Assembly: GCF_008016455.1 (NCBI RefSeq)
Contig: NZ_SAXU01000001.1
Span: 248,001-312,000 of the forward strand
DNA: 64,000 nt
Source of the DNA: Brachyspira aalborgi
GTDB taxonomy: Bacteria > Spirochaetota > Brachyspiria > Brachyspirales > Brachyspiraceae
Direction: 5' to 3'
In this document: piece by piece, positions 37,496 to 44,046 of the stretch
How positions within the stretch are numbered: position 1 is the stretch's first letter
How the letters are laid out: every line of letters starts with the position of its first letter
The notes under the pieces: generated by a model
Databases searched by the model: none
What the model saw: only the letters and a program-made list of their open reading frames with translations
What the model was told of the DNA's origin: nothing
Program-made: the position numbers and the translations under genes

Positions 37496-39703
37496 ATGGC
37501 AACTAGCGAAGCTTTTCTTGAAGAAGTTTATAAAAACGCTGTGGATGCGGAAGTTATAAAAAGAAGTTCCACGCTTTCAAATTTAGTAGATAACGCGAAA
37601 GATTATCAAAGAGAAATATCGGCTTATGAAGATTTGAAATATAGACTCGATACTTTAGCTTCAGCCTCAAAAGAATTATACGGTTTTCGTTCTCCTTTTA
37701 GAAATTTTGCGGGCAGAGGCGAAGGCGTTCCAAATTATTTTACAGTTACGGCAAATAGAATGGCAAATACTACAACTTACGATATAGCGATTAAAGAATT
37801 GGCAAAAAGCGAAAAATTTTCTTCAAAAGCTTATAATATGAAAGATAAATTGCCTGCGGGAATTATAAAATTAAAAGTCGGAGAAGACGAATATTCTATA
37901 GATTTTGCGGGCGGAAGTTTGGTAGATTTGCAAAAAGCTTTTGACAAAACATTTGGAAAAAAAGCAAAAACTACGGTGACTCAAAAATCGAAAAATTTGC
38001 AAGTTTTGACAATTGATTTAGTTAAAACAGGCTCAAAAAATATTGCCGAAGTTATAAGCGATGAATCGGGAATATTAAAAGAATTAAATATGTTTACAAG
38101 AAGAAATTATAGATATTTGGGGCATATTTTTAATCAAGAACTTTTAAGCAAATGGAAAGACGAATCGGATAATTTAACCACAAATTATATGATAAAAAAT
38201 GATTTTTTAGTTTTGAAAGGTATAAATAAATTATCGATGCCTTTGCATAGAGAAGCGGAAGCAAACGAAAATATAACGATTTCAATAACTGCAAGAGCGT
38301 CCGACACTTTAGACGATGAGGAAGAAACCGTTATTCCCGTAATGCCGCCAACTGTTGATTTGTCGATACCAGACACGGGAATTATATTCGATAAAATAGA
38401 CAGCGTTAAATTTAAAGATGTAGAATTATACGGAGAAGGTTTATCGCCAGCCGACAGTTCGAGGACTTTTGAAGATATAAAAAGATATAAAGAAGCGCTT
38501 GAAAGCGAAAGAAGAGAAAAGGAAGGAATTGAAGCGAAAATTCCAGATGCGATAGACGAAACAGGATTTAATTCTGAAATTATCGGCGTAAAATATATAA
38601 ATAAAGCGGGAGACGAGGTTGAAAAATTTTTTGCTTTGCCTACAATAAGTTCTTCTTGGCAGAGATTAAATATTCCGATTGGAAGCCAATTTGAAGAGGG
38701 CGATGTTATAACTCAAATAGTTTTGATAAATAAAAATCCTAAATATAATATTTTTTATAAAGATTTATTAGTTGAAGATTCGGGAAAAGAAGAAGATGCT
38801 CCAAATTATTTAATATCGGAAGCGACAGACGCGCGAGCTTCTATAGACGGAATAGATATTTTAAGCGAAAGCAATGAATTTAACGATGTTATAAACGGAC
38901 TCAATATAGTCGCTATAAAACCTACGCCCGAAGCATTTGCCACGACTATAGAAATTAATAAAGAGGGAGTTGTTGACGCTATAGTTAATTTTGTAAGCGC
39001 TTATAATTCTCTTATAGATTTTTTGAACGATTCTACTCAAAGACCTTTAACTAAAGAAGTTAGAAATTCTTTAGACGATATGAATAGAACGGATATGAAC
39101 GATTTAGCCACTACTTTACAAATAAGTTTTAATCCTGAAATGAGCGACTCCGATTTAAGAAAAAAATTATTTTATGTCGGAGTGTTTAGCGGAAATACTT
39201 TAGTAGGAACGATTTCGCAAAGAGTTAAGGCTATAGTTTCGGATTCTTATAAAACCGATTACGGCGAAGAATTGGCTTTATTAGACCAAATAGGAATTAA
39301 TAGAGGAAATGCGGGCGAGGATTGGAATGTAGTAAAAAAAGGATTTCTTCAAATAGAAGAAGAAAAATTTATGAATAAAATTGAAACTCAAATGGACGGA
39401 GTAGAAGAATTATTTGCAAACGATACTACGGGAGATAATTTGCCCGATACGGGAGCCGCTTATACTATGAACGATTTTATAACTCCGTATTCGCAAACAA
39501 GAGGAATAGTAGATAATAGCATTTCCGTTGCAAAAACGAGATTAGAAAGCAATCAAAAACGAATGGATAGCGAAAAAGAAAGAATAGAACAATATAGACA
39601 GGAAAGACTCGCTTCTTATTATAGAATGCAATCCGATTTGAAACAGGCTGAAAGAGACAGAAAGAGATTAGAGGCTATGCAAAATCAAAATAACGGTAAT
39701 TAA
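37496..39703 (+). CDS. fliD: Flagellar filament capping protein FliD
   Basis: The 735-residue protein has the FliD_N region (about residues 20-120, DYQREISAYEDLKYRLDTLA) and a FliD_C region (about residues 470-700) ending in a long helical coil KERIEQYRQERLASYYRMQ. It is larger than the enterobacterial protein (about 470 residues) because of an insertion in the middle, as usual for spirochaetes. It caps the growing flagellar filament, which in spirochaetes is periplasmic. No other flagellar gene is adjacent. A GGAG site precedes the ATG. Confidence 0.93.
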   Translation: MATSEAFLEEVYKNAVDAEVIKRSSTLSNLVDNAKDYQREISAYEDLKYRLDTLASASKELYGFRSPFRNFAGRGEGVPNYFTVTANRMANTTTYDIAIKELAKSEKFSSKAYNMKDKLPAGIIKLKVGEDEYSIDFAGGSLVDLQKAFDKTFGKKAKTTVTQKSKNLQVLTIDLVKTGSKNIAEVISDESGILKELNMFTRRNYRYLGHIFNQELLSKWKDESDNLTTNYMIKNDFLVLKGINKLSMPLHREAEANENITISITARASDTLDDEEETVIPVMPPTVDLSIPDTGIIFDKIDSVKFKDVELYGEGLSPADSSRTFEDIKRYKEALESERREKEGIEAKIPDAIDETGFNSEIIGVKYINKAGDEVEKFFALPTISSSWQRLNIPIGSQFEEGDVITQIVLINKNPKYNIFYKDLLVEDSGKEEDAPNYLISEATDARASIDGIDILSESNEFNDVINGLNIVAIKPTPEAFATTIEINKEGVVDAIVNFVSAYNSLIDFLNDSTQRPLTKEVRNSLDDMNRTDMNDLATTLQISFNPEMSDSDLRKKLFYVGVFSGNTLVGTISQRVKAIVSDSYKTDYGEELALLDQIGINRGNAGEDWNVVKKGFLQIEEEKFMNKIETQMDGVEELFANDTTGDNLPDTGAAYTMNDFITPYSQTRGIVDNSISVAKTRLESNQKRMDSEKERIEQYRQERLASYYRMQSDLKQAERDRKRLEAMQNQNNGN

Positions 39704-39709
39704 ATTTAG

Positions 39710-39729
39710 TAAACTTCCGCTAATAATTT
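39710..39729. repeat. 20-bp direct repeat, left copy
   Basis: The sequence TAAACTTCCGCTAATAATTT occurs here and again at 40710-40729, exactly 1000 bp away. The two copies bracket the Rpn nuclease gene. The right copy overlaps the last codons of the FkbM methyltransferase gene. Confidence 0.9.
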
Positions 39730-39764
39730 TATATTTTATTAAAAAAATTATAATTATTAAAATT

Positions 39765-39792
39765 TTGACAAATAAAAATATTCTGTTATAAT
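39765..39792 (+). promoter_or_regulatory. Consensus promoter, leaderless, for the Rpn gene
   Basis: TTGACA (39765-39770) and TATAAT (39787-39792) are both perfect consensus boxes with a 16-bp spacer. Only 7 nt separate the -10 box from the ATG at 39800, and no Shine-Dalgarno is present, so the transcript should begin at or next to the start codon. Confidence 0.75.
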
Positions 39793-39799
39793 ATTCTTA

Positions 39800-40675
39800 A
39801 TGATAAAAGAAGTAATAAAAACTAATGACTTTTTTGTCCGATTCTTTTTCGGAAGTAAAGGGAATGAGGATTTACTATTAAGTTTCATTAACGCTATAAT
39901 GATAGATTCAAATTTTGCTACTTTTAAATTGGTAGAAATTTTAAATCCGTTTAATCTTAAAGATAAAATAGATAATAAAGAAAGCATTGTAGATTTAAAA
40001 GCAATCACAGAAAATGGAGCTATTGTTATAATTGAAATTCAAACTTATTCGACTAAAAATTTCTTTGAGAGAACGCTTTATTATTGGAGTAAAAATTATT
40101 CAAGCGTTTTGAAAAAAGGCAAGGGATATGAAGAGCTAAAACCTGTTATAAGCATTAATTTAGTAAATGATTTTCTTTTTGACAAAACCGATAACAGAAT
40201 GCATACTTGTTATTTACTAAAAGAGAAAAAGAGTAATAAAATTCTAACCGACCATATACAATTACATTATGTAGAGCTTCCGAAGTTTAACAAAAAGAGC
40301 AACATTAAGAAAGAATTAAGGAATTGGATTTTATTTTTAAAATCTAACAAGGAGGAAGATATGTCTCAATTATTAAAAGAGGATACGATTTTTGAAAAGG
40401 CGATAAATAAGTATAATTATTTTACGGATAACAAAGATTTATTAAATGAATATGACAGGAGAGAGGCTTACTTAATTTATCAAGATAGTTTAATGAGAGG
40501 AGCTAAAAAAGACGGATTTGACGAAGGAATAGAAGAAGGCATTAAAAGAGGAATAAAAGAAGGCGAAAAAAATAAAGCAATCTCAATGGCAAAATCAATG
40601 AAAGCAAAAAACATGGATATTAATTTTATAAGCGAAATAACAGGATTAACCATTAAAGAAATAAATAAACTATAA
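39800..40675 (+). CDS. Rpn family recombination-promoting nuclease/putative transposase
   Basis: The 291-residue protein matches the Rpn/PD-(D/E)XK transposase-like family: an opening NDFFVRFFFG, a D at IVDLKAITENG followed by IVIIEIQTYST, with the E-x-Q variant of the nuclease motif, and FFERTLYYWSKNYS afterwards. The C-terminus is a basic and acidic helical tail (GIEEGIKRGIKEG) as in many family members. Rpn proteins are DNA nucleases that raise recombination; they are widespread, often multicopy, and have been proposed as defence or mobile genes. The gene is bracketed by 20-bp direct repeats and has a consensus promoter right at its start. Confidence 0.92.
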   Translation: MIKEVIKTNDFFVRFFFGSKGNEDLLLSFINAIMIDSNFATFKLVEILNPFNLKDKIDNKESIVDLKAITENGAIVIIEIQTYSTKNFFERTLYYWSKNYSSVLKKGKGYEELKPVISINLVNDFLFDKTDNRMHTCYLLKEKKSNKILTDHIQLHYVELPKFNKKSNIKKELRNWILFLKSNKEEDMSQLLKEDTIFEKAINKYNYFTDNKDLLNEYDRREAYLIYQDSLMRGAKKDGFDEGIEEGIKRGIKEGEKNKAISMAKSMKAKNMDINFISEITGLTIKEINKL

Positions 40676-40708
40676 ACAAGAAAAGCGATTTTTTATTTTT
40701 TTATTTGA

Positions 40709-41728
40709 TTAAACTTCCGCTAATAATTTATTTTCCGCAATTACTTTATTTAATCTGTTTTTTATTATTCTAAACTTATAACCCAAATTTAAATTTTCCA
40801 ACATTGGTTTTATTTCAAAAAAGTCGCTATAATTATGATATATGCTTATTATTAAAACGGGTTTTTGTTCTTTTATAGTTTCAATCGCTCCTTTCAAAAA
40901 TGGCTGTTCAAAACCTTCCAAATCGGTTTTTATCAAGCCGACTTCAATATTATTTTCTTTCACATAACTATCGAGAGTTACCATTTTTACTTTATTCTCA
41001 AAGCTATTAATATCAGATTGTTTTGTTTCTACCGAAAGTCCGCTATTGGCTGTATCACTATTTGAATAAATACTTATTTCTTTATTTTCATTTCCAAGCG
41101 CCATATTTACGGGAATAATATTATTCTTTTTATTTAATTCTATAGTTTTTAACATCAGATTATAATTTTGTAAAAATGGTTCAAAACTATAAACATTTTT
41201 ATCGGTATAATCAGAAAATACTATTGCAGAATCTCCAATATAACCGCCTGCGTCTATAATATTTTTATTTTTAACTTGATTTAAATTTTTTACATAATCC
41301 ATTCCGTATTTTCCGTAAAAAGCTTCAAACTCAAATTGGTTCTTTGGTAAAATATATTTATCGTATATAAATAATTCTTCATTTATTTTTATTATTTTGT
41401 TATTAAATTCTTCGTATAAATCGTTTAATCTTTTCGATTCTTTATGCGAAAAATAAATATCGTCTTCAATATTATTATAATTTGTAATCTTGGATAATAT
41501 TCCAATAACAATTTCTACGCTTTCTTTATCTAAATTTTTAATTAAATTCAAATATTTTTGATAAAAATTAGCGTCATTTTTTATTTCTTTTCTAAAATGA
41601 GTAGCTCCATCCCAAGCTTTTAGCGGTTTATTTAAGTTGTATATAAAATTCATATAATCTCTAATATTATCTCTTAATTTTCTAAATGGAATAAACCAAA
41701 CGATATTATCAATAGTTTTTGAAGTCAT
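40709..41728 (-). CDS. FkbM family methyltransferase
   Basis: The 339-residue protein has a class I SAM-dependent methyltransferase domain at about residues 150-320. The SAM motif is IIDAGGYIGDSA, then NVYSFEPF, and the FkbM-typical LIKTDLEGFEQPFLKGA and PVLIISIYHN follow. Such enzymes O-methylate sugars or other small molecules, and in surface-glycan loci modify polysaccharide. The first 140 residues are helical and unassigned. The ATG has an AGGAG site. Its last codons lie in the right copy of the 20-bp repeat. A pentanucleotide repeat lies 84 bp upstream. Confidence 0.9.
   Translation of the reverse strand: MTSKTIDNIVWFIPFRKLRDNIRDYMNFIYNLNKPLKAWDGATHFRKEIKNDANFYQKYLNLIKNLDKESVEIVIGILSKITNYNNIEDDIYFSHKESKRLNDLYEEFNNKIIKINEELFIYDKYILPKNQFEFEAFYGKYGMDYVKNLNQVKNKNIIDAGGYIGDSAIVFSDYTDKNVYSFEPFLQNYNLMLKTIELNKKNNIIPVNMALGNENKEISIYSNSDTANSGLSVETKQSDINSFENKVKMVTLDSYVKENNIEVGLIKTDLEGFEQPFLKGAIETIKEQKPVLIISIYHNYSDFFEIKPMLENLNLGYKFRIIKNRLNKVIAENKLLAEV
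40710..40729. repeat. 20-bp direct repeat, right copy
   Basis: This is the partner of the copy at 39710-39729. It encodes the last residues (KLLAEV and stop) of the FkbM methyltransferase on the minus strand, so a copy of a gene's 3' end is found beyond the Rpn gene. Confidence 0.9.
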
Positions 41729-41811
41729 AGAATTCTCCTAAATGTAAAATAATAAAAAATGCAATAGAAAAAGACCTATTAAAGAAAATAGGAATTATGC
41801 AAAAATTATGC

Positions 41812-41854
41812 TTGAATTGAATTGAATTGAATTGAATTGAATTGAATTGAATTG
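41812..41854. repeat. Pentanucleotide tandem repeat (TTGAA)8
   Basis: Eight perfect TTGAA units (41812-41851) are followed by TTG. On the minus strand the unit reads TTCAA. The tract lies 84 bp upstream of the FkbM methyltransferase start and about 160 bp upstream of the divergent Obg fusion gene. Confidence 0.95.
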
Positions 41855-42015
41855 CAAGAGCGCAAATTTATTTTATTCATTACAAAATCAAACATATAAA
41901 TATTTTACAATATCTTAAAATTTATGTCAAGTTTAAATTTGATAATTTTTATTATAAATTATAATTGATAAAATAATTTTTTATAATATAATTTATCACT
42001 TAAAAGGATTATAAA

Positions 42016-44046
42016 ATGAAACAATTTATAGATGTCGTTAATTTTGAAATCGAAGCGGGACATGGCGGAGCTGGATGCGTTAGCTTTAGAAGAGAGGCGC
42101 ATGTCCCAATGGGCGGTCCCGATGGAGGAAACGGAGGAGACGGAGGCGATGTAATTGTAATTGTTGATGCGAGAATAAATAGTTTTGGAAAAATAAAAAG
42201 CAGAAAAAAATTCAAAGCGAGAGATGGCGAGTCGGGTAGGGCAAGATTAAGCGATGGAAAAAAAGGCGACAATGTAATAATAAGAGTTCCAATCGGCACG
42301 GTAATTTATAACGAAGAGACTGAAAATATAATTGCAGATTTAACTGAAGACGGACAGAGCGAAACTATTGCAAGAGGAGGAAAAGGTGGCAAGGGAAATA
42401 AATTCTACGCTACTTCTACAAATCAAGCGCCCGATTATGCTCAACATGGTTTAGACGGAGATAAATTAAATATAAGACTTGAAGTGAAATTAATCGCCGA
42501 TATTGGACTTGTCGGAATGCCTAATGCGGGAAAATCGAGTTTGCTTGCAAGATTAACGAGAGCAAATCCTAAAATTGCATCGTATCCTTTTACGACTCTT
42601 ACGCCAAATTTGGGAGTTTGTTATTTGGATTATGAAAGAAGTTTTATAATCGCAGATATTCCTGGAATTATAGAGGGAGCGAGCGAAGGAGCGGGATTAG
42701 GACTCACATTTTTAAGACATATTGAGAGAACGGGAGCTTTAGTTTTTGTAATCGATATAACTGACGAAGATATTAACGAAACTTATTTAAAATTAAGAAA
42801 AGAATTAAAATTATATAGCAAAGAATTAATAAAAAAGAAATCAATAATTATTTTGAATAAAACCGATATGCTTGAAAAAAAAGAAATTGAAGAGAAAATT
42901 AAAAGCGTAAAAAAAGTTATAAATAAAGAATATAAAAATAATAAAGAAAATTATTTTGAAATTCCCGAAGTATTTGCGATATCTGTTTTTAGTTTAGATG
43001 AAGAAGAATTGGAAAAAATTACAAACGCTTTATATAAGGCAAACGAATTAAGATATTTTGAAACTAAAAAAAATTATAAAGAGCCTTTATTATTAAATAA
43101 TAAAAAATTAAAAACAAAAAGAGTATTTGGTCCCGTTCTTTCAAAGAGACTTGGAAATTCTTTGGGAATAGATGTAATTCCTCATAAAACTTGTTCTTAT
43201 AATTGCATATATTGTCAATTAGGTTCTGAAGAAAATACTATAACCGATTTAACAAATTATTATTCCGTTGATGAAATAATTTACGAATTAAAAGAGGCTT
43301 TGCTTAATAATAAAAATATCGATTATATAACTTTCACGGGTTCGGGAGAGCCTACTTTATATAAAGACTTGAAAAAACTTATTTACGAAATAAAGCAAAT
43401 AACAGATATTCCCGTATGCGTAATAACTAACGGTTCTTTATTATACAAACAGGAAATGCGTTCAAATTTGCTTTTGGCAGATTTAATTATTCCATCGCTT
43501 GATGCGGGAAATGAAGAAACTTTTAAATTGATAGATAATCCTAATAAAGAAATTGATTTTGATAAAATGGTTGAAGGATTAATTGAATTCAAAAAAGTAT
43601 TCAAAGGCGAATATTGGCTTGAAATATTTTTACTTAAAGACATAAACGATAACGAAGACGAACTTGACGATATAATAAAAATTGTAAAAAAAATTAAACC
43701 CGACAGAATTCAGCTTATAACGGCGACAAGAAGAGTGGCAAATGAAAAAGCTAAAGCGTTATCTGACGAAGAGCTTAAAAAAATAAAAAAATATTTTAAT
43801 TCAAAATGCGATATTGAAATCGATATTCCAAACATTTCTGAAAATCATAAAGGAAATACGAGAATATTAACCGAAGAGGATATTGTCAATTTTTTAATTC
43901 GCCAACCTGATACGGCATATATTATAGCTAAAAGTTTTAATGAAAACGAAAGAAAAGTTAAGGAATTGTTGGACTTACTTATTAAAAAAAATAAGGTTAG
44001 AGAAGAGATTGTTAACGGAGTTGTTTCTTATGCGGTTAATATTTAA
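42016..44046 (+). CDS. Obg GTPase fused to a COG0731-like radical SAM enzyme
   Basis: The first 340 residues of this 676-residue protein are a full Obg GTPase: the glycine-rich Obg fold (GHGGAGCVSFRREAHVPMGG, GGNGGDGGDV), the G1 motif GMPNAGKSS (about 167-175), DIPGIIEGASEGAGLG, and NKTD. Instead of the usual C-terminal OCT or TGS-type domain there is a radical SAM module of the COG0731 type: FGPVLSKRLGNSLGIDVIP then CSYNCIYCQLG with the cluster cysteines C393, C397 and C400, and GSGEPTLY. A winged-helix-like tail ends the protein. Obg acts in 50S ribosome assembly and stress control. The radical SAM family is related to tRNA wyosine-type enzymes. The reading frame is continuous. A start with AAAGGA supports the ATG chosen. 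Confidence 0.93.
   Translation: MKQFIDVVNFEIEAGHGGAGCVSFRREAHVPMGGPDGGNGGDGGDVIVIVDARINSFGKIKSRKKFKARDGESGRARLSDGKKGDNVIIRVPIGTVIYNEETENIIADLTEDGQSETIARGGKGGKGNKFYATSTNQAPDYAQHGLDGDKLNIRLEVKLIADIGLVGMPNAGKSSLLARLTRANPKIASYPFTTLTPNLGVCYLDYERSFIIADIPGIIEGASEGAGLGLTFLRHIERTGALVFVIDITDEDINETYLKLRKELKLYSKELIKKKSIIILNKTDMLEKKEIEEKIKSVKKVINKEYKNNKENYFEIPEVFAISVFSLDEEELEKITNALYKANELRYFETKKNYKEPLLLNNKKLKTKRVFGPVLSKRLGNSLGIDVIPHKTCSYNCIYCQLGSEENTITDLTNYYSVDEIIYELKEALLNNKNIDYITFTGSGEPTLYKDLKKLIYEIKQITDIPVCVITNGSLLYKQEMRSNLLLADLIIPSLDAGNEETFKLIDNPNKEIDFDKMVEGLIEFKKVFKGEYWLEIFLLKDINDNEDELDDIIKIVKKIKPDRIQLITATRRVANEKAKALSDEELKKIKKYFNSKCDIEIDIPNISENHKGNTRILTEEDIVNFLIRQPDTAYIIAKSFNENERKVKELLDLLIKKNKVREEIVNGVVSYAVNI

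Follow-up and report, generated by a model that had tools for sequence, protein, structure and literature searches.

The locus described here bears on the question of how rpn genes, though not transposons, are able to spread as single-gene units. In the passages of their preprint that concern mobility, Zhong et al. (2023, PMC10327210) describe rpn coding regions without flanking target-site duplications and judge that they are not transposases. For the spread of rpn genes in E. coli, the corresponding passages of Kingston et al. (2017, PMC5350276) keep both autonomous action and recombination with imported copies as options. In the 64,000-nucleotide stretch of Brachyspira aalborgi DNA analysed here (the window), an Rpn gene lies between fliD and a gene for an FkbM-type methyltransferase, and is bracketed by two copies of a 20-bp direct repeat, TAAACTTCCGCTAATAATTT, at positions 39710 and 40710 (Table 1). 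A literature search retrieved no paper on Rpn insertion footprints or on leaderless Rpn mRNAs in Brachyspira.

Reading of the sequence, together with matching against the window and the genome, placed both copies of the 20-mer where a preliminary description of this DNA had put them. According to the ORF coordinates, the right copy consists of the last codons of the FkbM gene and its stop codon less one base, in keeping with the earlier view of this copy as a gene tail. The 20-mer contains four C and one G and carries 36.8 bits. At up to three mismatches it matched only these two positions in the window, and at up to two mismatches only these two in the whole genome (2,504,147 bases). Shuffled sequence yielded a mean of 0.07 matches to the 20-mer, and two matches were found in none of 100 shuffles. 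If one small indel is allowed, the repeat reaches ∼26 nt. The spacing of exactly 1000 bp that had been remarked upon is correct as to position but has no support as a feature: it is a coincidence, since the promoter region and the tail are both short and, with the gene, happen to add up to this length. Exact repeats of at least 18 nt at a distance of 200–3000 bp account for 32 rows in the window, the Rpn-flanking pair included. The others are clustered at about 0.1–0.5, 6.5–8.4, 19.8–21.8, 29.1 and 50–51 kb, and presumably reflect repeat-domain or paralogous genes.

Table 1. Features of the Rpn locus and its neighbours, in window positions. The edges of the inserted segment are uncertain by a few to ∼15 nt.
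Feature	Position	Strand	Basis or comment
fliD, left neighbour	37496..39703	+	PF07195/PF02465
Left 20-bp repeat copy	39710..39729	+	Between fliD stop and Rpn promoter
Inserted segment (inferred), ∼980 bp	39730..40709	+	Comparison with the empty site in G006/L004
−35 box TTGACA, Rpn promoter	39765..39770	+	Motif also upstream of other Rpn loci
−10 box TATAAT	39787..39792	+	7 nt ahead of ATG; predicted leaderless mRNA
Rpn family nuclease gene, 291 aa, RpnL-like	39800..40675	+	PF12784, TIGR01784
Internal Shine-Dalgarno AGGAGG for RpnS-like form	40350..40355	+	Sequence
RpnS-like in-frame internal ORF, 104 aa, presumed antitoxin	40361..40675	+	Internal Shine-Dalgarno and ATG
Right 20-bp repeat copy	40710..40729	+	FkbM gene 3′ end (coding on − strand)
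FkbM-type methyltransferase gene, right neighbour, convergent	40709..41728	−	PF05050, TIGR01444

The Rpn gene is the only gene between the two repeats, and no integrase is encoded there. Its membership of the Rpn nuclease family, already proposed in the preliminary description, was established by matches to PF12784 (180.6 bits, cut-off 27.4, E = 5.1e-53) and TIGR01784 (167.6 bits, cut-off 52.1, E = 4.8e-49). Local alignment found no terminal inverted repeats on the putative insert (score 21; shuffle mean 21.5, with 55% of shuffles reaching the score). To the right, positions 40760–41989, comprising FkbM and its upstream region with a run of GAATT repeats, have a second genomic copy of 89% identity (G000:C1:212339-213576, L034), and the copied stretch ends near the start of obg. 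Inspected by eye, the 676-aa ORF at 42016–44046 encodes an Obg-like GTPase in frame with an apparent radical-SAM domain (CSYNCIYC motif).

A DNA search of 41 genomes identified one, G006, in which fliD and FkbM are adjacent and no Rpn gene intervenes (contig C417, locus L004). In this relative, the fliD stop codon is followed by a short spacer and then by a single FkbM tail that contains one diverged equivalent of the 20-mer. In this tail, 14 of the 17 bases of ACTTCCGCTAATAATTT are identical, this relative being ∼15–20% diverged. When the outer flanks of the window locus were joined at the 20-mer, the resulting empty site could be aligned against G006. Because the Rpn gene is absent and the 20-mer is single in G006, the comparison points to a segment of ∼0.98 kb that was inserted and whose target is now present twice. 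The preliminary description had read the repeat as a duplicated gene tail or target, and had reasoned that relatives free of Rpn should then carry one 20-mer and not two; the single, diverged copy in G006 agrees with this reading. FkbM follows fliD in this genome alone among the 24 fliD loci examined, so that the comparison has a single informative relative and lacks an outgroup. The Rpn gene was thus either gained on the branch of the window or cleanly lost in G006. Under gain and loss alike, a gene that one genome has and the other lacks is bracketed by a repeat that is single at the empty site. The window FliD shares 89% identity with its counterpart in B. catarrhinii Z12 (NZ_SJDU01000047.1) and 80% with those of two B. 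pilosicoli records.

The stretch between the Rpn gene and the right copy, TTTTTATTTGATTAAA, resembles the spacer of G006, TTTTTATGATTAAA (2.7% of shuffles reach the score). Because of this resemblance, a simple duplication with sharp edges is not established: the original spacer may be the one on the right, and the left copy a shortened duplicate. The ambiguity leaves the duplication in place and blurs its exact length, which is at least 20 nt and perhaps as much as 30 nt. Empty sites for the other 22 Rpn loci of the B. aalborgi genome were also sought in G006, where most contigs end at or carry another Rpn gene, or are without the second flank. At the sole other site with both flanks (L281/L271), G006 has unrelated palindrome-rich DNA in place of the Rpn gene and a lipoprotein gene.

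Rpn profile matches are found in 25 of the 26 genomes of the genus. The B. aalborgi genome itself has 25, two of which are pieces of one broken gene, giving 24 Rpn loci. The survey set of 103 loci comprised 23 of these 24, the broken gene (G000:C1:785041-785777) being left out, and 80 drawn from the best-scoring listed ones among 386 matches in other genomes; it is therefore not a random sample. A −10-like hexamer lies 3–11 nt ahead of the ATG in 91 of the 103 loci, compared with 6 of 175 control ORFs, and at exactly 6 nt in 80 of the 103. By contrast, a Shine-Dalgarno core at the start of the long form is found in none of the 103 loci and in 82 of the 175 control ORFs. A strong internal Shine-Dalgarno sequence with an ATG near codon 187–221 is present in 84 loci, the window gene included; the 19 loci that lack it by the same test include most of the other loci of the B. 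aalborgi genome in two subgroups. These data suggest that the toxin (long) form would be translated from a leaderless mRNA and the antitoxin (short) form from a canonical start. At two loci, L050 and L094, an intact internal RpnS frame persists in a different reading frame from the long Rpn frame, which is broken; this is what one would expect if the antitoxin were kept after loss of the toxin. Homology between many of the paralogues begins near the −35 box, and the recurring unit therefore extends from promoter to stop.

On these sequence features, the window gene appears to be an undamaged member of the gene-within-gene class of toxin-antitoxin systems that Zhong et al. (PMC10327210) described, with an internal in-frame start preceded by a ribosome binding site. 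Such systems are defined by a toxic RpnL nuclease that RpnS blocks and by protection against phage. The window gene shares with the systems in the relevant parts of that preprint an internal start that would yield the C-terminal part, single-gene horizontal spread and a high copy number within a genome, as well as short repeats containing glycine in the C-terminal helix, the last seen here by eye in the translations. The expression signals differ: in E. coli rpn, the transcription start described in those parts of PMC10327210 lies inside the gene, whereas the genes here have a leaderless-type promoter for the long form, with no Shine-Dalgarno sequence, and a strong Shine-Dalgarno sequence for the short form. 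Among 198 genomes of the phylum no donor gene was found, the best other Rpn having 54% amino-acid identity. Plasmid relatives were at most 35.2% identical among the best 10 of 187 matches, and phage relatives at most 31.3% (7 of 7 matches).

Flanking repeats were assessed in the survey set as the best exact repeat between the 300 nt upstream, promoter excluded, and the 300 nt downstream, a strong repeat being one of at least 26 bits. The controls were 273 non-Rpn genes of similar size, of which 95 have spacers on both sides. A strong flanking repeat was found at 10 of the 103 Rpn loci and at 1 of the 273 non-Rpn genes (Fisher p = 1.4e-5). Counted by site, the figures were 7 of 49 Rpn sites and 1 of the 95 control genes with two spacers (p = 0.002); the clustering into 49 sites split L119 from L113/L118/L131, which have similar ankyrin arrays, and merging them leaves 6 positive sites. 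The sole control positive has an exact repeat of 46 nt and looks like a tandem paralogue. The repeats at Rpn loci differ in both sequence and length: 117 bp at L142, 49 bp at L073, 44 bp at L070, 31 bp at L118 and 20 bp in the window. As candidates for clean insertion footprints, L142 and L073 were rejected and judged to be dispersed repeats, and both are still counted among the 10. The L073 repeat looks like the hairpin downstream of many Rpn genes.

The earlier expectation that other Rpn copies would be flanked by repeats therefore stands in part: 93 of the 103 loci are without a strong repeat, and those that have one carry different sequences. The window 20-mer itself was found at no other Rpn copy of its own genome (whole-genome match, up to two mismatches). 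The resemblance to a site-specific insertion that had been noted is not upheld, since the repeats at other Rpn loci vary in sequence and length. In E. coli, almost every genome has K-12 rpnA (5371 of 5426, counting places that cover 80% or more of the query), and for rpnE (4137 of 5426 genomes) no clean empty site was seen among the 30 matches listed.

Two further places in the genus are suggestive. The first is the spacer downstream of an RNase R-like gene, named rnr by eye from its ORF. In G009 (L202), the order is rnr, terminator, Rpn, terminator, next gene, with ∼47 identical rnr-terminator bases on each side and a broken Rpn gene. Rpn likewise lies between two rnr-terminator copies in G004 (L070/L198) and G002 (L080). 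A single rnr terminator and no Rpn are present in G011, G013 and G008, and in G021 and G005 an Rpn gene follows rnr with a single copy of the terminator. Eight of the 15 loci examined do not bear on the point: L207 did not yield a gene tail, the Rpn-like frame of L206 is truncated, and L205 and L208–L212 continue into other sequence. The second place is within arrays of ankyrin-type genes, where L113, L118, L119 and L131 each have Rpn with a copy of the array terminator on either side, and all 6 Rpn-free junctions have one terminator copy. Because the repeats at both places are terminator hairpins, the ankyrin one dispersed, recombination could explain both without a duplication at insertion. 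The window site is free of this problem. Overall, a single clean locus is accompanied by two places that are suggestive and by a statistical excess, which together do not amount to a rule.

The explanation that we favour, and consider probable though far from certain, is that an Rpn toxin-antitoxin cassette was inserted between fliD and FkbM by an illegitimate event that duplicated ∼20–26 bp of the target. A single-gene unit of ∼0.98 kb, running from its own promoter through its stop codon, would have entered the short spacer between the convergent genes, and the insertion would have copied ∼20–26 bp of target corresponding to the end of FkbM. One option is a break with two separated nicks, which would be filled in while the piece of DNA was captured. 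Another is that replication switched template to an Rpn donor and then back to a position a few bases upstream. Illegitimate insertion, by capture or by template switch, is favoured because the insert has no inverted repeats and because the duplications elsewhere vary in length and sequence. One might guess that a sequence-unspecific Rpn nuclease provoked the insertion; the passages of PMC5350276 on E. coli RpnA describe DNA cleavage that shows no evident specificity. The variable ends described in the mobility passages of PMC10327210 agree with a reading as illegitimate insertion. Much more doubtful is the broader idea that Rpn proteins drive non-transposase mobile cassettes as nucleases, through wide nicks or template switching at forks, capturing their own genes as leaderless-promoter units and leaving target duplications of variable length.

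Among the alternatives, homologous recombination would have brought in an Rpn cassette that was flanked by, or circularised with, sequence shared with the target, a single crossover of the Campbell type giving the order repeat, Rpn, repeat. This would suit the ankyrin and rnr places, where the terminators are themselves repeated, as well as the 3′ hairpins of Rpn genes that occur in tandem arrays with steps of ∼79–82 bp. At the window site, however, the 20-mer is a gene end absent elsewhere in the genome, and a stretch of 20 bp offers very little homology for RecA-type exchange; we regard this route as unlikely here. It is also unlikely that Rpn once lay between two tandem FkbM genes and that the left one was then deleted except for its tail, of which the left 20-mer would be the last trace. 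FkbM paralogues do exist, as the second copy in the same genome and two FkbM matches ∼300 bp apart in G009 attest, but that second copy has a different 3′ end, the homology stopping at 40760, and G006 has one FkbM beside fliD and no trace of another.

True transposition, with the Rpn protein as a transposase cutting in a staggered fashion and mobilising its own gene, appears improbable. The PD-(D/E)XK fold of the family, the 24 Rpn loci in one genome and the single-gene unit with its flanking duplication and empty site would fit such a mechanism. Insertion sequences share the short single-gene unit, the direct target duplication and the empty site in a relative, here with a single target copy in G006. 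Unlike them, the locus has no terminal inverted repeats, and its 20-bp duplication has counterparts of other lengths elsewhere, ranging from 20 to ∼50 bp or more. Rather than a duplication of constant length at most copies, only 10 of the 103 loci have a strong flanking repeat, of differing sequence and length; this variation in length makes classical transposition unlikely. A transposase role was also judged highly unlikely in the discussion of mobility by Zhong et al. (PMC10327210).

Site-specific integration by an integrase acting in trans, with the 20-mer as the att core, would account for a gene 3′ end duplicated on the far side of the insert, which is the anatomy of att sites. It is very improbable for a 1-kb unit that contains no integrase and whose 20-mer, absent elsewhere in the genome and different from the repeats at other Rpn loci, is no reusable core. 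Chance similarity of two AT-rich stretches is scarcely credible: the genome is AT-rich and an exact 46-nt repeat flanks one of the 273 non-Rpn genes, but 20 exact bases at 36.8 bits, a pair that no shuffle reproduced and an empty site with a single copy all stand against it.

The window site serves as a qualified counter-example to the lack of duplications reported in the mobility passages of Zhong et al. (PMC10327210): none accompanies the coding regions treated there, whereas here a 20-bp duplication is paired with an empty site. The statement in the preliminary description that a 20-bp duplication is no known signature of Rpn genes agrees with the same passages. Separate insertions of Rpn genes into one intergenic site resemble the case of the E. 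coli Rpn (YhgA-like) gene rpnC at panC-panD (Kingston et al. 2017, PMC5350276). The corresponding passages of that paper report no flanking duplication like the 20-bp one described here; in its main text the term 'direct repeat' does not occur and 'duplication' occurs once. The unique 20-bp duplication, the empty site and the further repeats in the genus constitute a footprint that can be searched for in strain collections. Such a footprint would tell homologous recombination apart from template switching or break capture.

Three further features of Rpn genes were observed. The last 80–150 nt are 95–98% identical between Rpn paralogues of the B. aalborgi genome (L043–L065) that have different N-terminal groups, such as L046 and L061, and these shared 3′ ends suggest domain shuffling of the antitoxin part. 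Copies of a small lipoprotein gene sit convergent with several Rpn genes (L046, L047 and L063), and some Rpn copies may therefore travel with this neighbour. Finally, hairpin-bearing tandem arrays with a step of ∼79–82 bp adjoin Rpn genes in two genomes (G020:C1:2861427-2861933 and G017:C1:2437515-2438119), and the array unit resembles the 3′ hairpin downstream of many Rpn genes.
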